Shown here: positions 22,003 to 39,307 of the stretch, piece by piece
How the letters are laid out: every line of letters starts with the position of its first letter
How positions within the stretch are numbered: position 1 is the first letter of the stretch
Source of the DNA: Janthinobacterium sp. 64
GTDB taxonomy: Bacteria > Pseudomonadota > Gammaproteobacteria > Burkholderiales > Burkholderiaceae_D
Assembly: GCF_002813325.1 (NCBI RefSeq)
Contig: NZ_PHUG01000001.1
Coordinates: 4,960,001-5,024,000 of the forward strand
Length of the DNA: 64,000 nucleotides
Direction: 5' to 3'
The notes under the pieces: generated by a model
The model's database searches: none
What the model saw: only the letters and a program-made list of their open reading frames with translations
Told to the model about the DNA's origin: nothing
Position numbers and translations under genes: made by a program

Positions 22003-22093
22003 GGAGAGATGGCTGAGCGGCTGAAGGCGCACGCCTGGAAAGCGTGTATAGGGTAATACTCTATCGGGGGTTCGAATCCCCCTCTCTCCGCCA
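22003..22093 (+). tRNA. tRNA-Ser (anticodon GGA)
   Basis: A class II tRNA with acceptor stem GGAGAGA / TCTCTCC, a long variable arm (GTATAGGGTAATACTC region) and anticodon GGA in the loop CTGGAAA. The T-arm is GGGGGTTCGAATCCCCC and CCA is encoded at 22091-22093. Its 3' part contains the 16-bp sequence repeated at 36550, so it is the attachment site of the genomic island that follows. Confidence 0.95.
22071..22086 (+). repeat. attL: 16-bp direct repeat in the tRNA-Ser 3' end
   Basis: TTCGAATCCCCCTCTC lies in the T-arm and acceptor stem of tRNA-Ser and is repeated exactly at 36550-36565. The integrase gene lies 225 bp further in, as expected for tRNA-targeting islands. Confidence 0.8.
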
Positions 22094-22172: not shown

Positions 22173-22310
22173 TGTATTCTGGCGTCCAGTACTGTCCAGC
22201 TGCAGCCAAATTTTTTGGGTGTTTGTTTGGGATCAATACCTAGTTCACACTGGGGACCATTCCCTGGTTAGTCGCCTATAGTGGTTTCTGACGCTTACGC
22301 AGAGGAGACC

Positions 22311-23603
22311 ATGATGCCCAAGCTCATCCCACCCCTTACCGAACTCCAGGTCAAGAACGCCAAGCCCCGGCCCAAGCCGTACAAGATGTTCGACGGTGGC
22401 GGCCTGTACGTTGAAGTGATGCCCAGCGGATCGCGGATCTGGCGCTGGAGATTCCGTCATGCAGACGGCAAGGAAAACGCGCTGACGTTTGGCCCGTATC
22501 CGGAAATTTCAATGCAGGATGCGCGAGAAAAGCGCCTGGAGGCACGCCGCTTGCAGCTGCAGGGGATCGACCCTGCCAAGCATCGCGATGACGCCAAGCG
22601 GCTCGCCGCCGAAAAGGCCGCCAATACCTTCGAGAAGGTGGCACGCGAGTGGTACGCAAACAAGGTGCCAACCTGGAGCGAGCGCACTTCCAAGAACATG
22701 CTGCAGCGCCTGGAGGCCGATATCTTTCCAAAGATTGGCAGCAGGCCAATCGCGGAAATCAAGCACCGCGAACTGATTGTCATGCTGCGCAAGATCGAGG
22801 AGCGCGGCGCCACCGAGATCGCGCATCGCCTGAAGGCCGTCTGCTCGCAGATATTCAGCTACGCTATCCAATGCGGGCTGGCCGACCGCAACCTGATGGC
22901 GGACATGAAGGACGTCCTCAAGACCAAGCGCGCGTCGCATTACGCCGCCATCAGTGCTGATGAATTGCCGACTTTCCTGGACGTACTGTCGCGCAACGAG
23001 GCGCGCATGTTCGAGCCGACGCGCATCGCGCTGCGCCTGATGCTGCTGATTTTCGTTCGCACCAGCGAACTGATAGAAACGCCATGGAGCGAAGTTGATA
23101 TTGAGAACGGCGAGTGGATTATTCCCTGGCAGCGCATGAAACGCGGCAAGCTGACCGTCAATCCCGACATGACCAATCACCATGTCTGCCTTTCGCGCCA
23201 GGCGCTGGCCTTGCTGCGCCAGCTGCATACCATTACGGGCCATGGTATTTATCTGTTTCCAAACCAGCGCGACCACGACAAGCCTCTGAGCAACAACACG
23301 CTGCTGGTGGCGCTGGCCCGCATGGGGTACAAGGGCCGCATGACCGGCCACGGCTTTCGCGCGCTGGCCATGAGCACCATCAAGGAGCGCCTGGGCTACC
23401 GCCATGAAGTGGTGGACCGCCAGCTGGCGCACGCGCCGAAGGACAAGGTCGCCAGCGCCTACGACCGCGCCCAATTCCTGACGGAGCGCCGCAAGATGAT
23501 GCAGGAGTGGGCCGACTACCTGGAAGCCGTGGAGCGCGGCGATACGCCGCAGCCGGGCCATCATGGATCGCTGGAACTGGTGTGGCCAGTGCCGCATCGT
23601 TAA
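22311..23603 (+). CDS. P4-type tyrosine integrase
   Basis: This site-specific recombinase is expected to insert and excise the island at tRNA-Ser. The 430-residue protein has the N-terminal Arm DNA-binding domain (DUF4102-like: LTELQVKNAKPRPKPYKMFDGGGLYVEVMPSGSRIWRWRFRHADGK), a core-binding domain at about 95-200 and the catalytic domain. Active-site residues are Arg250 (VRTSEL), His347 and Arg350 (HGFRALAM), His374 (QLAHAPKD) and Tyr384 (SAYDRAQF), so it looks functional. ATG 22311 is set by AGAGGAGACC just upstream. The next gene repeats its Arm domain. Confidence 0.94.
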   Translation: MMPKLIPPLTELQVKNAKPRPKPYKMFDGGGLYVEVMPSGSRIWRWRFRHADGKENALTFGPYPEISMQDAREKRLEARRLQLQGIDPAKHRDDAKRLAAEKAANTFEKVAREWYANKVPTWSERTSKNMLQRLEADIFPKIGSRPIAEIKHRELIVMLRKIEERGATEIAHRLKAVCSQIFSYAIQCGLADRNLMADMKDVLKTKRASHYAAISADELPTFLDVLSRNEARMFEPTRIALRLMLLIFVRTSELIETPWSEVDIENGEWIIPWQRMKRGKLTVNPDMTNHHVCLSRQALALLRQLHTITGHGIYLFPNQRDHDKPLSNNTLLVALARMGYKGRMTGHGFRALAMSTIKERLGYRHEVVDRQLAHAPKDKVASAYDRAQFLTERRKMMQEWADYLEAVERGDTPQPGHHGSLELVWPVPHR

Positions 23604-24238: not shown

Positions 24239-24560
24239 GCGTGCGTTTAATGCTTAATATTAATAGTACTTGAGCAAATACTTGTGTTAGTGTTTGACGC
24301 ATGTGTGCCTGCTTGGCAGGCACTAGTTTTTATCACGGAAATTTCTCTTGTCAGAGTCGGTAATTATTCAAGCTTTGATGACAATCGCTACTTTTCGTTT
24401 CTGGCGTACTAATGCTGGAAACAGCCGTAATGGCCCTTCACGCTAACGTGATAATGTGCGTTTTTTTCGCATTGGACAAGTCGTTGTATTCTGGGATCGT
24501 CATATTGCAGTAGTATTTTTTGATAACTATAGTTTTCCTACTATCAGAAGGAGCCTCTTG
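24239..24560. other. 322-bp intergenic stretch before the AT-rich gene
   Basis: An inverted repeat TGTGCCTGC / GCAGGCAC-like near 24302-24322 could be a terminator for the integrase unit. The rest is AT-rich and probably holds the promoter of the gene at 24561. I see no gene. Confidence 0.4.
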
Positions 24561-25838
24561 TTGAAGATGCTTAGCGAACTTACCGATATACCGCCAGTAC
24601 TGCAGTTGCTAGTAAATGAGGTGTCTCAATGCGAAAGATGGAGCGATGCAAGGAAGCGCATCAAGAATATTCTACCAGAACTAAAATTGCAAGCCCGATC
24701 TTTTGAATTTCCAAATTCCAATGATGCGATTAAGGCAAGGGATCCTGGGAAGCTGGATATACATTTGCACGGTGCTCTCGATATTATTAGTGGGGATGGG
24801 TGCTCAGCATTTTCTTGTCGTATTTTGGCGGCGGATAGAATTGCACGAAGCGTGGGGTTGATAGCCGATAGGATTTGGCTAACAGATACAATATCATATA
24901 GGTTAGTAGATTTTGGTCGAGCAACTAATGAAAAAATTGATGGATTAATTGAAGATGCAAAAGTACTTTCTAGATTGGCTCCGTTAATAAATGCTGGATT
25001 GGTGAAATTTAGATCGCCGTTCTTTGCGATATGTGACTGTTGTTCGGATAAGTTGATCGGGGATATATCATCACTTTCTAAAATTTTATCGAAGAAATTC
25101 AAATCAGATTATAAATTGGAGCCTTGCGAAAAAGGCGGATATATTGCTCACACTGGAAAATGCTTCGAGCCACCACTGATATTGACAAATCCATATGCGG
25201 AAGAGCTGCCGAGACTACGTGATTTTCTTGAGCCTCATATAGAGCAAGAGTTACGATCTATTCTCTATGTCGCTCGCGAAGCATCATTGACAGGTGGTTC
25301 GATCGTCTCTAATTCCCGCCTCGGATTAGCCGGTTTACTGGAGCAAGACGGTCGTCTATTGAGTAGAAGGTCAATGCTACTCTTAGAACGAGAGCGTGAA
25401 ATTAATGTTCCTTGGGTGAGCGAATTGAGCCCTGAGCAAATTGTGCAACTTCGCGAAGAGGCCGCAATTGCACTGCCAGCATTTAGGTCCCAACTCACTA
25501 GAATTTTTTCTGCAGACGCAAGTAATGAAGCACTGACTTCCGCCTTGGTATCATTGGAATCCCTAAGAGATCAAGCGGAAGAAGTAAGGGCTGAATTGAA
25601 TGCAAAGAAAAAGCATTCCTCAAAGTATTGGAAAGTTACCTATGGTGTTCTTGGGCTCGGGCTGTCCGCTTATGGTGTTTCTACGGATAATGTTGCTGCC
25701 AGTATAGGTGGCCTTCTTCCTTTAATTCAGATGCTTATCAACCATCAAACTGGTTATGATTCTGAATTGACAAAAATAACATCGCGTCCTAGCTATGTGT
25801 TATTGAAAGCTCAGGATATATTGGCCCACGCGCACTAA
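24561..25838 (+). CDS. Unknown AT-rich island gene with hydrophobic C-terminus
   Basis: The product of about 425 residues is not a family I can name. It contains DIHLHGALDIISGDGCSAFSCRILAADRIARSVGLIADRIWLTDTISYRL, a central CDCCSDKLIGD cysteine cluster and a long helical part ending in a short coiled coil (LESLRDQAEEVRAELNAKKKHSS). Two hydrophobic stretches follow (VTYGVLGLGLSAYGV and AASIGGLLPLIQMLI), possibly membrane-associated. GC content is visibly lower than the chromosome, indicating transfer. TTG 24561 is chosen because AAGGAG lies 7 nt upstream; ATG 24567 is the alternative. Its island position makes a defense role possible but unproven. Confidence 0.75.
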   Translation: MKMLSELTDIPPVLQLLVNEVSQCERWSDARKRIKNILPELKLQARSFEFPNSNDAIKARDPGKLDIHLHGALDIISGDGCSAFSCRILAADRIARSVGLIADRIWLTDTISYRLVDFGRATNEKIDGLIEDAKVLSRLAPLINAGLVKFRSPFFAICDCCSDKLIGDISSLSKILSKKFKSDYKLEPCEKGGYIAHTGKCFEPPLILTNPYAEELPRLRDFLEPHIEQELRSILYVAREASLTGGSIVSNSRLGLAGLLEQDGRLLSRRSMLLLEREREINVPWVSELSPEQIVQLREEAAIALPAFRSQLTRIFSADASNEALTSALVSLESLRDQAEEVRAELNAKKKHSSKYWKVTYGVLGLGLSAYGVSTDNVAASIGGLLPLIQMLINHQTGYDSELTKITSRPSYVLLKAQDILAHAH

Positions 25839-26440: not shown

Positions 26441-27275
26441 GGCGTCCCCCTTCGTGAATCAAAAATGCCAGCGGCAGCACCGGGGCGAATGGCATATGTG
26501 GCAGGCCTTGCCCTGTCACCGATTCGTCCTTCGTGGAAACGCGCTCGCAATCATTATTCCGAAAACACGTGTCCAGTATCGAATGCTGGAATCACTGGTG
26601 CAACAAGAATCGGTCTGCCATGCCACTTGGATCAAGCCTGTCGCGCACTTTGTGTGAGATCAAGGCTGGACACAGGGGCGGCTTCGTGGAAGCTTTAGCA
26701 GCTAAAAATTGGGCAATCGACAGCGCATTCTTCATGCGATAGATGCATTGGCGCAGCCCCGATTTCATTGGTCCTGTTGCTGTATCGCCGCCACATGTGC
26801 ATGCGACTGCTGGCATCTCACGCCATCAATACCTATCAGCAATTGTTTTGACCGCCTCCAGGGGGGAGCTCTTTCTGTCCACGCGGAAAGGCGCAGCCAT
26901 CGGAGGAGAAGCGCGCTATTGCCGTGTAGAACTCGTAAAGCAGACTATGAAAATTTGTTGCTGACATTGATCAAGGTCGGCCCAGATGCATGTCAAATGT
27001 TCCCACTTGGACGCTGCCAATTGCCGCTGATCAACCGTGCTACTTTCGGCATACATTCCTGCTAAATCTGCTCTCGTACCTGCAAAAAAATGGTTCGACC
27101 GAGGTATTACCCGGTGATTTAAGGGTTTCAGTCGCTGCACAGGGCGGAACTACCGTGCTAGTTTCGGCATACATTCCTGCTAAATTTGCTTTCGTATCTG
27201 TAAAAAAATGGTTTGGTCGAAGTTGTGTCCGACGATTTTTGTGGTTTAGTCGCTGCGCGAAGCGGGGCAGGATAG
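26441..27275. other. 835-bp region without a recognisable gene, upstream of the giant gene
   Basis: Short ORFs occur on both strands (for example 26743-26964), but none has a good ribosome binding site or a recognisable product. The last third holds the two tandem repeats listed separately. It may contain decayed mobile DNA, the promoter of the giant gene, or an unannotated RNA. Confidence 0.4.
27034..27270 (+). repeat. Two tandem copies of a ~118-bp repeat
   Basis: Copy 1 starts at 27034 and copy 2 at 27152. They share long identical runs such as TTTCGGCATACATTCCTGCT, then near-identical GCTCTCGTACCTGCAAAAAAATGG / GCTTTCGTATCTGTAAAAAAATGG type segments and AGTCGCTGC near the end. Reading frames are not preserved between copies, so the repeat is not coding. 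It lies about 450-690 bp upstream of the giant gene start. Confidence 0.7.
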
Positions 27276-27277
27276 GT

Positions 27278-27308
27278 GAAGTTAGCTAACCTGCGGTTAG
27301 CTAACTTC
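27278..27308 (+). repeat. Perfect 13-bp inverted repeat at the integrase-remnant border
   Basis: GAAGTTAGCTAAC and GTTAGCTAACTTC are separated by CTGCG. It marks the start of the integrase fragment and may be a remnant recombination site or a transcriptional hairpin. Confidence 0.6.
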
Positions 27309-27518
27309 CCACCTGCTTATTCGCACTTCGTGCTCAACGGTCATACGCGCCCGTCCTTGCAGCTGCAGGCAGCGTTTGGTTTGCGGCGCGAGGAAAGCAT
27401 CAAGATCAAGCCGGGGTGGGTCGATGGCGGGAACATCCTGCGGCTGCAGGATAGCTGGACCAAGGGCGGCAAATACCGGGAAGTGCCGATTGCCACCATG
27501 CAGCAGCGCGCCGTGCTC
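27309..27518 (+). pseudogene. Fragment of a second tyrosine recombinase (Integrase_1-like)
   Basis: About 70 residues (LQLQAAFGLRREESIKIKPGWVDGGNILRLQDSWTKGGKYREVPI) match the start of the catalytic domain of Integrase_1-type recombinases, including the first catalytic Arg in LRREE. The N-terminus and the HxxR...Y part are missing. Homology stops near QQRAVL at 27518. The fragment is in frame with the giant gene by chance, which makes that ORF look longer than it is. Confidence 0.75.
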
Positions 27519-27719
27519 TGGTTGAATCCAATTGTTACTGCCCCCCACTCTCATAAGTCGCAGCCAAGTGCAACCACTCAGCTAGTGAGATTTTGCGTAC
27601 TTTCCAGATCGGCAACATGTTATGCTCTATGGCTAATGGCCGACTTTTGCCATGCCGGACGCTCAGGGATTTTTGAGGCCTCCCATCTCAAAACAAGCTC
27701 GAAAAAATCTAGGAAATAC

Positions 27720-30700
27720 GTGGATCGATACGATATCAGTGACCTTCTGACCAAGGCACCACTGGAGGAAGTAGTAAGACGACTCGGTATAGACGCCGAG
27801 CGACGAGGCTCACAGACTCTGGTACTTTGCCCGTTTCACCAAGACACACGACCTTCGCTGACTCTGTATCGAGCTGATGGAACTTCTCCCGCGCACTTTC
27901 ATTGTTTTGCTTGTGGTACCCATGGCACTGCCATTGACCTAGTCAAGCAGGTTGAGGGACTGGAATTCCTGCCGGCGGTAGCGTGGCTAGCCCAGCAATT
28001 CGGCGCCAAGCCTTTGCGCCTGAGGTCCACGCGACGGGACGAGCGAAAGGTTACCAGTGAAACCGCACTGGACTTTGCGCTACGCACTTTTGACGCGCAA
28101 CACGACACCCAGCGATTCAAGTCTTGGTGCTTAGAACGTGATTTCAACGATGGATTTCTTTACCGCCAGGGGCTGCGTTGCATCACGCGCAGTGTCTTGG
28201 TTGAGGCCTTGCAGGGCAAGGATGTAGGCGAACGTATCGAACTACTTGATGGACTGGAGAACCTTGGGCTGATCAAACGCTTGCGCTCCCGATCCTCTTC
28301 CAGCCAATGGAAGCTGGATTTGCTCGATCAGTTTCAAGACTGCTTTCATGATGGACGCGTGATCATCCCCATTCGTGGCCCCGATGCCAATAAGCCCAAA
28401 GTAAGCGGCTTTGCGGGTCGCGCGCTACAGAGTGTACCCCCAGAAGGTGTGGCGAAATACCTGCTAACGTCGGGTTTCGATAAGAGCAATCATCTATTCA
28501 ATGCGACAGATGCATTCAATGCTATCAAAGAAGCATTAAAGAACAACCAACAGGCAAAGCTTTATTTGGTTGAGGGCTTTCTGGATGCGCTACGACTTTT
28601 GGAGCTGGGCCAACCTGCAGTGGCGCTGATGGGGATCAGCCTGAGCAATCAACAACTTGGTCTGCTGAAAGCGCTAGCAGAGAGCGCACCCGGCAAAGGT
28701 GAATTGGTATACAGCGTTTTTTTAGACAGCGACTCTGCCGGTTTCGGTGGTGCCGGTCGCTTGGTGCGGAGGCTGCTTGACCTCCAAGGCGTGGACCTGC
28801 GCTGGATAGGTCTGCCCTGGCGAACTGATCCGACCTTGGGGAAAGACCCCGACACGAGTCTGCGCAGCTTGGCCTCATCCGAGCAGGCCACCGATTGGCT
28901 GCAGAGATTCGAGCTGCCGGCCGAAGGTCTGCTTCTTGCAGGTGAACTGGGAAGTCAAGACGCATCGGAACTTCAAGCATCCCGATGGAATCAGTTAGCT
29001 GCGACCATCCGCGAAAGGGCTTTATTTAGAACTGCTCTCACCGTTAAGCGGCTCTACGGCCACCGCTTGCCTGACCTGCCGGCGATGAGGCTCAGTGACA
29101 GCCAGTTGCCATGGGCGCAACAGCTTCATTGGATGCTAGTAGCATCCAATGAAGCAAAGCAGCCGATACAACGCAGCGTATACCTCGACGATGTTCTTCC
29201 GCGCGCAGCATTGGCTAGGAGGCTTGCCTATCACGGTGCGCATCGTGGCGAACTGCCTTGCGATGAAGAGGCTTGGCAAATTTTAAATAGTAATGAGTAC
29301 CTGTTTGACCAGACAGCGTTGGATCGCCTAAAGGCCACTCTTCAGAAAAATTCATGGCACCAGGGAGCACCCTTCGATGCTGTGCATTTGCCACGCAAGC
29401 TCACTGGGGACAAAAACGTACTGGACGATCCGCGTCTAAAGGTGATGCCTCACCCGGCTGACTTGCATGCGCAACAGCTGCTTCTCAACGAGTTGCTCAC
29501 CGAGCGACATGATCGCTTAAGCGCCGGGGGCCAGACATTCTCAGCGTGCATTCCCGCCGTGCGCTGGTACGCATCTCGGCAGGAAGTGGTGGTTAGCGGC
29601 ACTTATGAAGAACTCAATGAACCTGATCTTGAATGGGATGAGCCGAAGACCTTAAGCTTCGGCTACCAGATCGACATGGACGTTCTGGAGGGCGATAGAA
29701 TCCCAACGGACCAGGGCATGTTCCGGCCGTTCGGTCAATGCTGGCGTGACTTCATGGCGAGCTTGGCGCATCAGTGCCACGCCATCGGTCCCCGAGTGCA
29801 TGTGCTGCGCCTGGATGCCAAGCGCTACTATGATTCCATCCAGCGCTACGTGGTAAGAGATGAGTTACTCAAGCCGCTGTCAGCCGCATTACGCGACCAC
29901 AATCCGGAGGGCTTCAAGAGCATGTTCGGCTTAGCGGCCGATTCGCCTGTACCGGATGGCGCACTGGAGCGCCTTTTGACTGGACTCATATTTGGATACG
30001 AATATCACGATCCCGAGTTAGTGGAGCAAACCCGACAGAGCAAAGAGGCGATCGGCATTCCTCAGGGACCGGTGCTGTCTGCATACATTGGCACCATTGC
30101 GCTATTTCCTGTGGACCATGCAGCTCGCAATTTCATCCGTCGCACTCGCACCGAAGAAACCGGCTCAGACAGCAAGCGCCGCCCGCGCGCCGGTTATGCG
30201 CGCTACGTGGACGATGTCGTGATATTTGCCGATAGCGAGGAGCTGCTGAAGGAGCTGCGCGAAGTGCTGCAAGCGAAGGCCGCTGAGCTTTCTATCGCAT
30301 TGATCCACAAAGGTGAACGTGTGCGCTCAGGCACGCCCATTCAGGTCATGCGTCAGCTCAACGACGGGCGGGGCCTAGCAGCGTCTGTACCGGCTTGGGC
30401 TCACCCCATCGTAGGTGACGGTGAGGCTGATTGGAGTCTCGGGGACGACCTACCCAAGGTTGATCGTCAGTGTGCCCTTCAGATGCTGCGAGACCCAGCG
30501 CTCATGGAGCGTCCTGAGGACATTGTCAAGCACGTGAAAGCGGCAATGACCGCATCCGATCTGCGAGCCAATGACTTGGGCCTCTGTGCGCGGTGGCTAT
30601 GGTGGTATGTGGCGGCCGTGAGCCAACCGGTCGATCCCGAGGCGGCTTGGACCTCCTTCCGAACGCATTGGGACGACGTGTGTGAGAACCACGATTGGGC

Positions 30701-33700
30701 AGCAGCTTTTGCTGAGCGTGGCTACGACATGCTCTTTGCGGTCGAAGGACTAGACAGGCTGCTCGATCCCAACCCTTGGCAGGCGAACGGTCAGTTCTTG
30801 GCTGAAGTTGACAAGAACCGGAACCACCGCATTGCTCTGGCACGCTTGGTTTGCAAGGATGATTTCTTCCGAAGCGTAAGACCGGCCACGAACCGTGACC
30901 ACGTAGCACGGCGGACGCGGCTGATAGCCCGCAAAGCTCGGCGTTTGGCTGGTAATGGCCCGGTGCTCCCGGCGGTGACGCCGCAAAGCGAGCGTAGGGT
31001 GACCGCCATCGAGTGGCTGTGTCTGGCAGGTACGGTTTTGATGAGCGCGGCAGTTGATCGACCGCTGGCTGCACTTCAAGACCGCGAAATTATTCCACTT
31101 GATGAGCTAGAGCTCGCACATGGCGTCATTGAGCAGCTGAGGGAGAACGATAGTGCTGTAAGGACTCGTGCCGAGGCTGGTCTGGCTATCGATTTTATCG
31201 TGAGAAGCGCACCTCCCCAAGAGCGACTGAGCGTACTGTCCAAATTCCGCGGGCTGCTTTCGAACCTCGGCAGTGAACAGAAACGGAGGCTGATTCCGCA
31301 CCTGCCAGTCCTCAATCACCAGACCGCCTCGTTCTATGAGATCGACGAAGAGCTGGGAACTGGCGGCAGGTATCTTTACCGTTGCGCTCTGCGCGAGGCG
31401 ACGCAAGACCTGAATGAAGTGGCGTCCCAATTCGTACAGGCGGCCTTGGGTTCAGGGCCCTCAAGCGTCACTGAAACAATGCAAGTCCGGTTCAAGTTGG
31501 AAGGAGCCGAAGCGTTCACTGTTTGCTGGGGCAAGAGCCTGACCTCTCAGGTGTGGAGCGACTTGGCTGCACTAGGAAAAACGGGCCCAGAAGCTCGAAC
31601 CCATTTAGCGGCACGCCTGTTCCTAGCACTCCTCTCCATGCACCAATTGCGGGAGGACGAGAAAGGGGAAATGACCTATGTTCCGTTCTTGCCTCAGTTG
31701 TTCCTCGAAGTTGAGGGCGATCAGACGACACTCCATCTGGTAGCTGACCCCGTCCCGCGCAATCTTTTGGGAGTAAGCGCTTGGTACCACGACCGCGATG
31801 AAAGAGTTCAGTCGGAAAACGTGCCGCTGGCTGATGCAGATCTTTGGCGCGTAGGTTGGGCTGTCGCCGATGTACTAGGTGTGGCCACTGATATGGCGGG
31901 TGAAACCGGCGTGCGTGACGAGCTACTCGATGAAAGCGAGGAGTTTGATAACGAAGCGCATGCCAAGCAGGCACTGGAAGGCTATGTGCTGCGACAGCAA
32001 CTGCGCAAGTTGCAGGGGAGCTTCCTGTCCGGGGTGCCGACCGCCGTTGTAAGCGACACGGCCGTTTCGTTGCCGGGCACCGTCAAGCGGGCGTTGAAGT
32101 TGTTGCTGGACTTCCCTTCGAACCAAGGGTTGGACGCGCAGGTGCGCCACGCAATTCTGGTGGAAGCCGAGACCCGAGCCATGGCCATGCGGATGCAAGC
32201 GCGCAGCGGCGACGACTTGCGACACGTTCTGCATCGTGCGTTTCCCGATGCGTTGAACCGATTGCCATTATGGGCTCTTGGGGGCCTTAAGTTGCGGCGC
32301 CCCACGAACCAATCAAGCGAATTGCGCCCAGATTTGGCACTGATGTTGGCCCTGTACCGAGCGCTATATCCTGAAGTGGTGGAAACTGATATTGACGTGA
32401 CGGCACCGTCACTGCGCATAGCGCTGGCATTGGCGGCTGTCGGTGTAGGCCTGCGCGGCAGCGTGGCAGCGCTTTGGGGATACACTGCGGATCTCGGCTC
32501 GCGCCGCATGGAAGAAAACCTGAACCTGCCGACGAAATGGGCAATGCCCGATATGGCCCGCCTAGATCCGCAGGGGGATTACAAGGCCATGCGGAAACTG
32601 TTGTTCGATGGTAATTGGCCGGAACTGTGCAAGGCCAGTCCCTGGAAATGGATGTTGGGCTTGATCGGTCTGTTGAATAGCAGCTTTGCGCAGGCTTTCG
32701 AGCTTCCGTCATTGGAAGCGCTCTACAAAACCCTCAGTGCCTGGCAGACCACACCCGCACGCGTCGATGACTCTGCCCCCGCACATGAGCCCTGGCCGTT
32801 CGACGCTTTGCCTAGATTTACGTTGCAGCAATGCGAGGACTTGATGCGGGCACTACCAGCAGCGATGTGCGACCTCGATCTGAAACGGGGTATGCGCGTG
32901 GTATGCGTTCAAGGCCGGACGTTCGGTCGCAGCCGAGACACCAATGAGTTTACGGATGTTACGGGCGCCGGCTGGCAAATGACCAAGCCGCAATACACCA
33001 GCCTTTACGCCAATTCGCTAGAAGAGCACCGTCCGTCTGACGGCAACCGGATACTCAAAGTCTGGACCGAGACACGCCGTATTGCTGACAATGATCTACT
33101 GGCCGTACACACTCTAGATAACAAGCTCGGGAAATGGCTGCCATCTCAACCGGAGGCGGTCCTAGTGATTCCAGCGAGTGCGGTAGTTTCCTTGCAAACC
33201 GTTCGGCAAGACGATTTTCCGGAAGTGATAGATAGCGTAGCCGGAAACCCTGAAATACTGGCGGATTCTCAGCTAGAGCCAGCAGAGGGGCAGCCTCCAG
33301 CCACTCAGGAAAATGATGCGCTACCCAATGAAGCCTCTTCCCAGTCTAGATCCGGTGGGGCGGATAGTGTGGAAGCAGGCACGACTAAATCAATGCCGTT
33401 ATCAGATGGAAACGAATCGTCGATGCATACGGATCGCTCGGCCGACGACTCGATGATCCCACCGCCTCCCCCATCGGACGTGCAAGAAAAACTCGATGTA
33501 GCCCAGAAAGCTAGTAAGTCGGACCACGAAATCTCAACCTTGCAGCTTCTCGACAGGTTGAGCGAATGGCAAAGTGAGTCGTGGAAAAATCGTCTTGGAG
33601 GCGAGACTAGCCACGACCAGGAAGCACGTATTAGCTCCCATTTTCGCGTTGCGTTATTCCAGTGCCGCGTAGAGGAAAGTTACAGTCATCCGTTAGCAGA

Positions 33701-35372
33701 AGTCGGGTTAGGCGGTTTGCCTTTATCCAAGTCGTCGCAAGAAGCACTCCGAGCCCATCTTAAGGACAAAGGTCAGCTCAAGGACTTGAGTAAGGCCGTC
33801 CAGCGACATTCTGAATTTCGTTGGCAAGATGAACTGCGAGTCATCTCGTGGCCCGAGCATCGGCGGCGGACACTTTTACGGCAAGCGTTGAAAGCGTGCC
33901 GAGACCTCAAGGTGCAACTTCTCGTCTTGCCTGAGGTATCAGTACGACCGGATACGGTCGTGTGGTTGAAGGAGCAGCTTCGAAACTATCCCGGATTGGC
34001 TGTACTGGCGGGGACCTACCGGCAATTTGAGGAAGCCGACAGTAGCAATCACTTGGCGGAGAAACTGACCTTGTTATGGCAACCGGATAAAGCTTTGGAA
34101 GTGCCATTTGGCTTAGAGGGCGACACTGGAGTAATTGAACTGCAGCGCGGCAAGAAGTACCGCGCCGTCGCAGCTCATGAGCTGTTCCGGCCTGATGTCA
34201 AGAAGTTGGAACCGCTGTACACCGAAGAGAAGGTGGTAGAGGCCTTACGCGGTATTCGAAGTCGCGCGAAGAAGGGAGAATGGTCACCAGAGCAGCTAAT
34301 TCCGTTGCTTAGGGCGTTGATCCATGGCCCCCAGAAGCTGCGTTACTGTATGGAATTGGTTTGCTCCGAGCTATTTATGCTGACAAGTCCCGCCAACCGC
34401 TCGCCGCTAGAGCACGAATTGGCCAAGATGCTGCAACTGTTTGGAGGAAATCCTTCCGAAGCTAAGAAGCATGTCGATGAAGACATTAGCGCACTTGGCG
34501 AACTACTGACGTCCGCTCAGCGCAATCGTGAGCGGCGATCCGTGCTGCTAGTTCCTGCCTGTACAAGCCGTAGCAACGATTATTGGCATGCAGGCCAAGC
34601 CAGCGTCTTAGCATCGGGTACAGCTACTGTATTTTGCAATGCTGCCAACAAAAAGCTTAGCGTTGGAGGTAGTTGTTTTATAGGTATTGACTCTGTCAGC
34701 CACGTGAAACCTGACCACGCCGGCACCGTACGCCTGTTGACGCCTTATCACGGCTGGAGTAAGGGAATCCTCCAGCCTGACTGCAAGGGGGCCTTGTCCG
34801 CAGCTGATCAAGCCTTAGTGGTTGTAGATCTCGATCCTGTTCACGTAGTTAGTGGCAAGCCTCGCCCACAATTACTTCCCGAACCTATGTCGCTGGTAGC
34901 GTATCTACCTATAGTGGAAGTTATAGACAAGATGAAGAATGCCAGGGGACTGGAGAATGCGTTGAGCGACCAATTGACGTCGGATGGATGCAAGCGGTTG
35001 CATGAGATGTTGACGAATGAAGCCTTTCCCGAAGCATGCGGACCATTGCACAAGCGCGACAATTTCGCGGAAGCGTTCAAGATGCTGCTCGACGCAAAAG
35101 CGAACAGCAGCTTGAGTCTGGAGACAGGCGGAGCGACAGTCGAAATATTCAAGGATTTTTTTGGTGATCCTAGCGCCGTACGCGAGCGCATCTTGGCATG
35201 GATCAGAGACCGTCATCAGCAGCCTGCACCAAAGGCTGGTGAGCGGAATCTGGAGCCGGTTTGGCTGGATTTTTTGATCGCGGATCTGACGTGGAGGTAT
35301 AGCGATGAGCCGCCAAAAATCCGGGTCCCGCAATGGCTTGGCGAGTTGCCACGTGCTTTCAGCAAAAAGTAA
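27720..35372 (+). CDS. Giant DnaG-like primase / reverse transcriptase / nitrilase fusion (DRT1-like candidate)
   Basis: From GTG 27720 the product has 2,550 residues. An N-terminal CHC2-type zinc ribbon has Cys37-x2-His40 and Cys62-x2-Cys65. A TOPRIM domain follows, with Glu285 (LVEGFLDAL) and the Asp336-x-Asp338 pair (FLDSDSAG). The reverse transcriptase has RLDAKRYYDSI (Asp699), IPQGP (780-784) and YVDD (829-832). A long, mostly helical region follows, then a Pro-rich linker (PPPPPSD) and a nitrilase-like domain with LLVLPEV (Glu2072) and VCSEL (Cys2215). RT plus nitrilase is the layout of UG1/DRT1 antiphage proteins; the primase-like front is additional. AGGAA 5 nt before GTG 27720 supports that start. 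The upstream frame to 27276 is an integrase remnant. Defense function is inferred. Confidence 0.85.
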   Translation: MDRYDISDLLTKAPLEEVVRRLGIDAERRGSQTLVLCPFHQDTRPSLTLYRADGTSPAHFHCFACGTHGTAIDLVKQVEGLEFLPAVAWLAQQFGAKPLRLRSTRRDERKVTSETALDFALRTFDAQHDTQRFKSWCLERDFNDGFLYRQGLRCITRSVLVEALQGKDVGERIELLDGLENLGLIKRLRSRSSSSQWKLDLLDQFQDCFHDGRVIIPIRGPDANKPKVSGFAGRALQSVPPEGVAKYLLTSGFDKSNHLFNATDAFNAIKEALKNNQQAKLYLVEGFLDALRLLELGQPAVALMGISLSNQQLGLLKALAESAPGKGELVYSVFLDSDSAGFGGAGRLVRRLLDLQGVDLRWIGLPWRTDPTLGKDPDTSLRSLASSEQATDWLQRFELPAEGLLLAGELGSQDASELQASRWNQLAATIRERALFRTALTVKRLYGHRLPDLPAMRLSDSQLPWAQQLHWMLVASNEAKQPIQRSVYLDDVLPRAALARRLAYHGAHRGELPCDEEAWQILNSNEYLFDQTALDRLKATLQKNSWHQGAPFDAVHLPRKLTGDKNVLDDPRLKVMPHPADLHAQQLLLNELLTERHDRLSAGGQTFSACIPAVRWYASRQEVVVSGTYEELNEPDLEWDEPKTLSFGYQIDMDVLEGDRIPTDQGMFRPFGQCWRDFMASLAHQCHAIGPRVHVLRLDAKRYYDSIQRYVVRDELLKPLSAALRDHNPEGFKSMFGLAADSPVPDGALERLLTGLIFGYEYHDPELVEQTRQSKEAIGIPQGPVLSAYIGTIALFPVDHAARNFIRRTRTEETGSDSKRRPRAGYARYVDDVVIFADSEELLKELREVLQAKAAELSIALIHKGERVRSGTPIQVMRQLNDGRGLAASVPAWAHPIVGDGEADWSLGDDLPKVDRQCALQMLRDPALMERPEDIVKHVKAAMTASDLRANDLGLCARWLWWYVAAVSQPVDPEAAWTSFRTHWDDVCENHDWAAAFAERGYDMLFAVEGLDRLLDPNPWQANGQFLAEVDKNRNHRIALARLVCKDDFFRSVRPATNRDHVARRTRLIARKARRLAGNGPVLPAVTPQSERRVTAIEWLCLAGTVLMSAAVDRPLAALQDREIIPLDELELAHGVIEQLRENDSAVRTRAEAGLAIDFIVRSAPPQERLSVLSKFRGLLSNLGSEQKRRLIPHLPVLNHQTASFYEIDEELGTGGRYLYRCALREATQDLNEVASQFVQAALGSGPSSVTETMQVRFKLEGAEAFTVCWGKSLTSQVWSDLAALGKTGPEARTHLAARLFLALLSMHQLREDEKGEMTYVPFLPQLFLEVEGDQTTLHLVADPVPRNLLGVSAWYHDRDERVQSENVPLADADLWRVGWAVADVLGVATDMAGETGVRDELLDESEEFDNEAHAKQALEGYVLRQQLRKLQGSFLSGVPTAVVSDTAVSLPGTVKRALKLLLDFPSNQGLDAQVRHAILVEAETRAMAMRMQARSGDDLRHVLHRAFPDALNRLPLWALGGLKLRRPTNQSSELRPDLALMLALYRALYPEVVETDIDVTAPSLRIALALAAVGVGLRGSVAALWGYTADLGSRRMEENLNLPTKWAMPDMARLDPQGDYKAMRKLLFDGNWPELCKASPWKWMLGLIGLLNSSFAQAFELPSLEALYKTLSAWQTTPARVDDSAPAHEPWPFDALPRFTLQQCEDLMRALPAAMCDLDLKRGMRVVCVQGRTFGRSRDTNEFTDVTGAGWQMTKPQYTSLYANSLEEHRPSDGNRILKVWTETRRIADNDLLAVHTLDNKLGKWLPSQPEAVLVIPASAVVSLQTVRQDDFPEVIDSVAGNPEILADSQLEPAEGQPPATQENDALPNEASSQSRSGGADSVEAGTTKSMPLSDGNESSMHTDRSADDSMIPPPPPSDVQEKLDVAQKASKSDHEISTLQLLDRLSEWQSESWKNRLGGETSHDQEARISSHFRVALFQCRVEESYSHPLAEVGLGGLPLSKSSQEALRAHLKDKGQLKDLSKAVQRHSEFRWQDELRVISWPEHRRRTLLRQALKACRDLKVQLLVLPEVSVRPDTVVWLKEQLRNYPGLAVLAGTYRQFEEADSSNHLAEKLTLLWQPDKALEVPFGLEGDTGVIELQRGKKYRAVAAHELFRPDVKKLEPLYTEEKVVEALRGIRSRAKKGEWSPEQLIPLLRALIHGPQKLRYCMELVCSELFMLTSPANRSPLEHELAKMLQLFGGNPSEAKKHVDEDISALGELLTSAQRNRERRSVLLVPACTSRSNDYWHAGQASVLASGTATVFCNAANKKLSVGGSCFIGIDSVSHVKPDHAGTVRLLTPYHGWSKGILQPDCKGALSAADQALVVVDLDPVHVVSGKPRPQLLPEPMSLVAYLPIVEVIDKMKNARGLENALSDQLTSDGCKRLHEMLTNEAFPEACGPLHKRDNFAEAFKMLLDAKANSSLSLETGGATVEIFKDFFGDPSAVRERILAWIRDRHQQPAPKAGERNLEPVWLDFLIADLTWRYSDEPPKIRVPQWLGELPRAFSKK

Positions 35373-35499: not shown

Positions 35500-35784
35500 G
35501 GCTTTGTTGCACAAAATCCCGAGGCGCGCGTGAATCGCGACTCGGTAAACTTTCAGCATGAATGCACCGAGCAAACCGAAGTATCGAACGACCAACTGGA
35601 AGGAGGACAACGGGGCGCTGAAGGTGCATGGTTCGCGACTCACCTGGCTCGACCAGGACATGTGCTGGCACGGCAGTGGGGGGAGCCGGAAGTACAGCGA
35701 GACGGCGATTCAGTTTGCCTGTCCATAAAGGCTCTGTTTGGCATTCCCCCAGCAGTACGGACACTTCCGCTAGGCCCATTTTAG
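35500..35784 (+). pseudogene. IS5-family transposase remnant
   Basis: GGCTTTGTTGCACAAA at 35500-35515 resembles an IS5-group terminal repeat. From ATG 35558 the frame reads NAPSKPKYRTTNWKEDNGALKVHGSRLTWLDQDMCW...RKYSETAIQF, the N-terminus of IS5-type transposases. A frameshift near 35718 moves the sequence to CLSIKALFGIPPAVR in another frame, and homology then ends. No right terminal repeat is seen. It lies about 130 bp after the giant gene. Confidence 0.8.
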
Positions 35785-36549: not shown

Positions 36550-36565
36550 TTCGAATCCCCCTCTC
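36550..36565 (+). repeat. attR: 16-bp direct repeat matching tRNA-Ser
   Basis: TTCGAATCCCCCTCTC is identical to 22071-22086. The next bases (GGGCAGCC) differ from the rest of the tRNA acceptor stem, so either the core is limited to these 16 bp or the right junction has been altered. Confidence 0.7.
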
Positions 36566-38560: not shown

Positions 38561-38659
38561 CTTTGTTTTTCAATGGATTAATTATGATTTTTCATGATAT
38601 GAAATGAATTTTCAAAAAGTGAGAGCATAAATGGCTGAGTCTGCTGTTTGAAATTTCGT

Positions 38660-38731
38660 GATGTGAAACGCCTTTTCAGAATTTGGTGCAGCGCGACATA
38701 TCGGGACGAAAAAAACCACCCGAAGGTGGCG
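38660..38731 (+). repeat. 72-bp direct repeat, left copy
   Basis: The sequence from GATGTGAAACGCCTTTTCAG to CACCCGAAGGTGGCG recurs at 39236-39307 with roughly 80% or better identity. The copies flank the SUKH-type gene. Each contains a small hairpin (CACC-CGAA-GGTG). In the left copy, on the minus strand, the hairpin is followed by seven T, so it can also act as a terminator. Confidence 0.75.
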
Positions 38732-38785: not shown

Positions 38786-39214
38786 ATGCAGATGAACGGT
38801 TTGGATTTACCCGTCGAGTATGTTGCTTTTGCAGCAAGGTATCGGGATGTGGAAGGATTTTGCAATTTGAGACTGAAAGAAGAGCTCGATTCTTTCGGTG
38901 GCGTCTTGCAGACGGAACTGGCTCAAATCTATACGGATGTCGTCGAATTGACTGCCCAGACAGCGAAGCTTGGCGCGTGTTTCGTCGGCGATGGCTGCTA
39001 TGGGGAGCCTGGAAGTGTCAGTGCCGGGCCGGGAGCCATTCCGGACATCGTTGATTTTACAGAAATCATTTGTTTCGGCATGGCCGGTGACGGGAGTCAA
39101 TTCTGTTTCGATTTCAGGGGCGCCCGAAGCGCGCCATCTGTCATCGTATGGGACGATGATTACTGGCGAAAGATTTCAAACTCCTTTGAAGAGTTCCTAT
39201 TGCTATTTTCTTGA
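38786..39214 (+). CDS. SMI1/KNR4 (SUKH) family protein
   Basis: The 142-residue protein ends in GDGSQFCFDFRGARSAPSVIVWDDDYWRKISNSFEEFLLLF, the SUKH pattern found in many immunity proteins against contact-dependent and polymorphic toxins. The N-terminal half (GLDLPVEYVAFAARYRDVEGFCNL) is less conserved. No matching toxin gene is adjacent. It lies alone between two 72-bp direct repeats, as an exchanged cassette might. AAAGG occurs upstream of ATG 38786. Confidence 0.8.
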   Translation: MQMNGLDLPVEYVAFAARYRDVEGFCNLRLKEELDSFGGVLQTELAQIYTDVVELTAQTAKLGACFVGDGCYGEPGSVSAGPGAIPDIVDFTEIICFGMAGDGSQFCFDFRGARSAPSVIVWDDDYWRKISNSFEEFLLLFS

Positions 39215-39235
39215 TAGCTTGCCGGGGCAGCTGCT

Positions 39236-39307
39236 GATGTGAAACGCCTTTTCAGAATGTGGTGCGGCGCGACATATCGTGGCGAAAGGAGTCACCCGAA
39301 GGTGGCG
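39236..39307 (+). repeat. 72-bp direct repeat, right copy
   Basis: This is the partner of 38660-38731. It begins GATGTGAAACGCCTTTTCAG and ends CACCCGAAGGTGGCG, with scattered substitutions (for example the run of A is replaced by GGAGT). It starts 22 bp after the SUKH stop codon. Confidence 0.75.

Follow-up and report, generated by a model that had tools for sequence, protein, structure and literature searches.

UG29, a predicted antiphage fusion of DnaG-type primase, reverse transcriptase and nitrilase fold, and its candidate protein-priming residue

The described systems closest in architecture to the protein analyzed here are the defense-associated reverse transcriptases (RTs) DRT7 (UG10) and DRT1 (UG1) and the bacterial primase DnaG. 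Cellular DnaG enzymes make RNA on single-stranded DNA. The DRT7 group is not known to have a nitrilase. In DRT7, an RT is fused to a primase in one chain, and the primase is described as belonging to the archaeo-eukaryotic type, AE_Prim_S_like (PMC8934634). DRT1 is an RT-helical-nitrilase protein (9YFD), with a chain of 1,229 aa that lacks a primase; it assembles into tetramers or filaments with a nitrilase core. According to the report on this system (PMC13275509), DRT1 primes DNA on its own Ser402, which lies 77 residues past the catalytic Asp pair, where cryo-EM did not resolve the chain; the priming peptide is INEIQNEVGTS*SIPER and the adduct ...GTS[dA]SIPER, and the S402A substitution abolishes immunity. 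Tyrosine is described as the primer in Abi RTs and, probably, in DRT9 (PMC12483538).

The window, that is, the whole 64,000-nucleotide stretch of the Janthinobacterium sp. 64 genome that was analyzed, contains a single intact open reading frame (ORF) for a protein in which a CHC2 zinc ribbon, a DnaG-type TOPRIM core, an RT and a nitrilase fold follow one another from the N- to the C-terminus, as established by fold prediction and comparison (Table 1). The protein matches the RT_UG29 profile of PADLOC-DB (PDLC03767) end to end, with a score of 2,778.7 bits (residues 2-2540 against positions 2-2278 of 2,280), this being the longest among the 25 profiles listed for it, and no difference from that model was found in whole length or domain order. 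Three distant relatives (P0123, P0195 and P0216) score 1,591-2,317 bits with the same model. By sequence comparison, the window protein thus belongs to UG29, a catalogued group of defense-associated RTs, the name of which we take to come from Mestre et al. 2022. The NCBI label of many relatives, 'CHC2 zinc finger domain-containing protein', gives no hint of the RT and the nitrilase. In the literature searched, we found no paper that uses UG29 as an RT name (the word occurs only in plant papers) and no function, mechanism or experiment for it; given that the PADLOC-DB model exists, the architecture looks catalogued but apparently uncharacterized. A database form of 2,698 aa is probably over-long because the in-frame 5' extension of the ORF (27276-27719) holds a weakly matching integrase remnant (PF12835, 21.3 bits). 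A possible transposase remnant (weak PF13737 match, 14 bits) lies immediately downstream of the gene, at 35558-35728.

Table 1. Features of the UG29 gene and of the island that carries it (window coordinates; residue numbers refer to the 2,550-aa protein)
Feature	Coordinates	Strand	Details
tRNA-Ser, island insertion site	22003..22093	+	
Left attachment repeat, 16 bp	22071..22086	+	
Tyrosine integrase of island	22281..23603	+	PF00589, PF13356, PF22022
UG29 gene	27720..35372	+	2,550 aa, GTG start
CHC2 zinc ribbon	27732..28007	+	residues 5-96
DnaG-type RNA polymerase core with TOPRIM	28059..29150	+	residues 114-477; E285, D289, D336, D338, D376
Reverse transcriptase fingers and palm	29190..30359	+	residues 491-880; D699, D831, D832
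YVDD catalytic motif	30204..30215	+	residues 829-832; 218/218 aligned proteins
Post-RT loop, predicted disordered	30366..30458	+	residues 883-913; pLDDT ~26-36, blocks 881-910
Ser889 codon, proposed protein-priming residue	30384..30386	+	Ser 210/218, Tyr 8/218
Middle region, mostly helical	30459..33119	+	residues 914-1800; secondary structure in models, which cover residues other than 1201-1350
Nitrilase-fold domain	33621..34868	+	residues 1968-2383; E2072, K2145, E2154, C2215
Right attachment repeat, 16 bp	36550..36565	+	

The first-pass annotation of this DNA had recognized one gene for the whole fusion, with a DnaG-like front end, an RT with a YVDD motif and a nitrilase domain, and had related the protein to DRT-type RTs. 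These assignments agree with our results: Pfam, fold prediction and comparison concur on the front end, for which structure prediction gives both the zinc-ribbon and the TOPRIM folds, the RT and nitrilase folds are likewise predicted, and the profile scores bear out the relation to DRT-type RTs. Two further statements have to be revised, namely, that the architecture had no described match, which RT_UG29 provides, and that the combination of RT and nitrilase points to UG1/DRT1, given the end-to-end match to RT_UG29 and the short one to Drt1a. In the profile scores, by which the kinship of UG29 to other RT groups was compared, the next RT model after UG29 is UG10 for P0123 (69.3 bits) and Drt1a for P0216 (53.7 bits) and for the window protein (35.9 bits, residues 682-851 only).

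UG29 resembles DRT1 in the Asp pair of the RT, the C-terminal nitrilase with a catalytic Cys (the complete catalytic tetrad is present) and a conserved hydroxyl residue in a flexible stretch past the RT, but differs from it in the much shorter match to Drt1a and in the presence of the primase. With DRT7, it shares the fusion of RT and primase in one chain, whereas its primase is of the CHC2/TOPRIM and not of the archaeo-eukaryotic type. The likeness to bacterial DnaG extends to the CHC2 ribbon with its zinc ligands, the polymerase core and the TOPRIM domain with its catalytic acidic residues; however, where DnaG has its helicase-binding end, UG29 has an RT. The RT fold starts straight after the end of the DnaG core, Pfam scored no helicase-binding domain in the UG29 protein, and the score with the replicative DnaG equivalog TIGR01391 is 129.3 bits, against a cut-off of 283.6 bits. 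A further DnaG-like match in this genome lies in a separate frame of 599 aa.

To assess the conservation of the active sites, we aligned 218 proteins of at least 2,400 aa, the window protein included; in a 38-row subset, identities reach as low as ~23%. The five TOPRIM acidic residues and the three RT aspartates listed in Table 1 are present in all 218 proteins, as are R213, R234 and Y247 of the primase core, which the profile aligns with 1dd9 and other catalytic cores of DnaG. All four zinc ligands occur in 208 of the 218; the other 10 rows have gaps, 9 of them from a late row start. In the nitrilase part, which had no sequence-level match among solved nitrilases and no nitrilase match by Foldseek alone, E2072, E2154 and C2215 are invariant and K2145 is present in 217 of the 218 proteins. 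The earlier reading that the key catalytic residues are intact thus holds well beyond the window protein, and it is a new finding of the present analysis that, as seen in this alignment, three active sites are invariant throughout the family.

With both the TOPRIM and the primase-core residues invariant, the alignment indicates that the primase has been kept as a catalyst and is not a relic. This bears on two alternative roles of the DnaG module. It might only stabilize or regulate an oligomer, with DNA synthesis and nitrilase action proceeding as in DRT1 and no RNA being made; DRT1, as it is described, works with an RT and a nitrilase only, but we consider such a role of the module quite improbable because the primase catalytic residues are absent from none of the aligned UG29 proteins. 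The module might also act as a sensor, triggering the RT-nitrilase part once it has bound or primed phage single-stranded DNA at a replication fork. The zinc ribbon and the primase core of DnaG bind single-stranded DNA. The T4 single-strand helicase Dda is reported to be required for DRT1 activity (PMC13275509). Sensing alone, however, would need no set of five acidic TOPRIM residues retained in every row, and this role appears unlikely.

One position stands out among the Ser/Thr/Tyr columns of the alignment, residue 889, which is Ser in 210 of the 218 proteins, Tyr in 8 and nothing else. It lies 57 residues past the YVDD motif, in a loop predicted to be disordered (residues 883-913), which is longer than any other low-confidence stretch in the first model. 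The conservation of this loop is 0.56, with 0.72 in its core (883-891), compared to 0.22-0.37 in four of the other six stretches of low confidence. A quick RT tree with 132 rows requires 4 changes to account for the 8 Tyr rows, at least 3 of which are forced by well-supported branches, and nearly identical loops differ precisely at this position: ALPASGPREEA (P0212) and ALPAYGPREEA (P0216), or ALAASGPAWEP (P0239) and ALAAYGPAWEP (P0236). In P0207, which is among the 8 Tyr rows, the loop fits the motif poorly. As a control, we examined 15 other Ser-dominant columns, in which Tyr accounts for 13 of the 503 exceptions, 10 of these in a single column, and Thr, Ala and Gly dominate.

A protein-priming hydroxyl, such as that of Ser402 in DRT1, is expected to show just this pattern of Ser or Tyr without any Ala, Gly or Thr. 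Thus, protein priming at the candidate residue Ser889 appears likely, judging from the alignment, and the recognition of the Ser/Tyr889 site in this family is the second novel element of the analysis. The equivalence of Ser889 and Ser402 would be one of position and context only: the contexts are AAS-V-P in the window protein and GTS-SIPER in DRT1, and the comparison of DRT1 (9YFD) with the UG29 profile gave a match only with an E value of 0.26 over profile positions 764-842, leaving the two loops without a sequence alignment. According to the DRT1 authors, the other class 3 DRTs do not conserve Ser402 (PMC13275509), which counts against the parallel.

The first-pass annotation had proposed a different use of the primase, namely, that the RT extends, as cDNA, an RNA primer which the DnaG module has synthesized on a nucleic-acid template. 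Primer synthesis is the role of DnaG in replication, the primase active site of UG29 is complete, and the RT is fused directly behind it. Concerted priming and reverse transcription has been put forward as an idea for class 10 RTs in the myRT paper (PMC8934634). Nevertheless, this model is disfavored, and we regard it as improbable, because only Ser and Tyr occur at position 889, where DRT1 has its priming serine, and because, among eight loci, no flanking RNA common to more than one close pair was seen. Purified DRT1 and DRT5 are also reported to make DNA covalently attached to protein without an added RNA template (PMC13275509). The RNA result covers only these few loci and their adjacent flanks, so that an RNA elsewhere is possible: when 1 kb on each side was compared on the plus strand for the window and seven loci, nothing common was found downstream, and the upstream matches were limited to one close pair (L005 and L009) and a 20-base match between L006 and the window. 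Two tandem 118-nt copies, 77% identical, lie upstream of the gene (27026-27261); this repeat was discarded as an RNA candidate, given that neither copy folds better than shuffled sequences on either strand (z from -0.23 to 0.81), and it had no significant match upstream of six relatives (L005-L010).

Protein priming suggests a different division of labor between the two polymerases. A protein-primed RT could start without the primase, and the order in which the RT acts first, the primase second and the product then controls the nitrilase appears to be the most economical because a protein-primed RT would yield single-stranded DNA, the template of DnaG. We tentatively propose that UG29 is a two-polymerase abortive-infection enzyme with an RT that likely uses its own Ser889 to begin untemplated DNA. 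The RT would write untemplated DNA that remains joined to the protein, and the DnaG-type primase would then lay RNA on this self-made strand, resulting in a primed or hybrid duplex. This nucleic-acid product could set the assembly and the activity of the nitrilase, and phage infection, by disturbing the product, would cause the nitrilase to attack a cell metabolite. Copying of the RT product by the DnaG module is suggested by analogy with second-strand synthesis in DRT3, where two RTs are reported to produce double-stranded DNA, and in the DRT7/UG10 RT-primase, for which protein-primed duplex-like DNA has been reported (PMC13213688, for DRT7 citing a preprint). An effector role of the nitrilase in UG29 would agree with DRT1, in which the C1116A substitution of the nitrilase cysteine is reported to abolish immunity while DNA is still made (PMC13275509). 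UG29 is thus predicted to protect cells against viruses. Accepting all these steps, it would be a self-contained DNA-writing immune machine with two unrelated polymerases in its chain: the RT would be primed by Ser/Tyr889, a captured bacterial primase of the replicative type would turn the strand into an RNA-primed or RNA:DNA duplex, and a nitrilase toxin would be gated by this duplex; in this complete form, the proposal is somewhat doubtful. If true, it would be a second, independent case of immunity by RT and primase, with a primase fold unlike that of DRT7, in which a replicative-type primase has been recruited to immunity beside an RT, linking the nitrilase branch (DRT1) with the RT-primase idea (DRT7). 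The Ser/Tyr889 site and the three invariant active sites make the mechanism testable with one point mutant per active site.

The UG29 gene is cargo of a 14.5-kb island inserted at a tRNA-Ser gene, bounded by 16-bp repeats and encoding an integrase (Table 1), in line with the tRNA island seen at first pass. When relatives from the genus were examined for an empty insertion site, the isocitrate lyase flank was matched over the gene end or more in 24 of 25 cases, no tRNA was found in the 21 short loci scanned, and no empty site was seen. Another island ORF (24456-25838, 460 aa) has no Pfam or PADLOC match. Outside the island, a 73-nt direct repeat (38659-38731 and 39235-39307, 89%) flanks a SUKH-family (SMI1/KNR4) ORF at 38786-39214 that looks like a small inserted immunity-type gene.

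The search for homologs and their neighborhoods that the first-pass annotation called for yielded numerous homologs and no regular partner gene. No defense model matched near the window gene among 10 ORFs, not all of which are likely genes. Defense-type genes were detected near 3 of 7 other loci, among 22 neighbors picked by hand for size and nearness (20 of the 72 ORFs of at least 120 aa in L005-L010 and 2 of L013), which is suggestive but not a statistic; ten of the 22 had no PADLOC match. NACHT-type genes score with PDC-M54A in L008 and L013 and with Avs4 in L013 only, where the gene is also annotated as NACHT; L008 further encodes an AlbA/Schlafen-domain protein and L009 an HsdR. L007 and L009 have transposases, and L005 has housekeeping genes. 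An all-against-all comparison of the ORFs of the window (15001-50000) and 8 loci did not support a conserved partner gene, recovering outside the UG29 region only two pairs above 50 bits, a weak one between L009 and L010 (28%) and the NACHT-type one between L008 and L013. The NACHT-type pair consists of related large genes (L008:4094-9412 and L013:2754-8183, 37% identity) located upstream of UG29 on the opposite strand, in a Rhodoferax MAG and on a Polaromonas plasmid, respectively. Because no gene regularly accompanies UG29, it is likely to be a one-gene system. The presence of the gene on an integrative island and on a plasmid could also signify a non-defense role, as a replication or mobility enzyme of the carrier, but the nitrilase has no obvious place in replication, and the island and the Polaromonas plasmid have recombinase genes of their own; we consider such a role very unlikely.

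The UG29 gene is rare. Two protein searches gave 187 and 131 matches, the second using as the query the RT-nitrilase half of a Sphingomonas protein, with scoring limited to the 7,994 candidates of ~1,030-3,270 aa that had the most words in common with it. Most of the named minority among the matches listed belong to Burkholderiales, Xanthomonadaceae and Alphaproteobacteria, one being from a Verrucomicrobium (Haloferula luteola), and the nearest named relative among them is from Janthinobacterium (88%). Among 369 genomes of the class (E 1e-60), the full gene was found only in the window's own genome, a second match covering only profile positions 6-405, the DnaG part; among 392 family genomes, one other contains just a fragment, which has an internal stop and is located close to the start of a contig. 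The scan that located 7 loci in genomes employed exact short patterns, which find close relatives only, and the same kind of scan gave no match in 4 stretches of viral contigs. Separate DnaG partners of the RTasDnaG-like kind (PDLC03800) were found in 0 of 398 genomes (E 1e-80) and Drt1a in 0 of 274; in neither case did a control match, so that absence is not implied. One of 72,556 plasmid records, Polaromonas pPNAP05, matched over 80% of the query, a Sphingomonas aerolata plasmid has a UG29 gene cut by the start of the record, and no phage record covers 80% of the query. A 2,438-base record labelled cyanophage AS-1 (DQ115810.1, 1-1340) contains a UG29 fragment that is 55% identical to residues 764-1201 and ends in a stop; it is possibly a mislabelled or contaminating clone. 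Finally, among the 22 proteins shorter than 2,400 aa from both searches, 3 start inside the TOPRIM part by profile position (P0025, P0185 and P0238) and 5 start after it (P0034, P0036, P0103, P0232 and P0234); these short proteins may be natural DnaG-less forms or cuts at contig ends.
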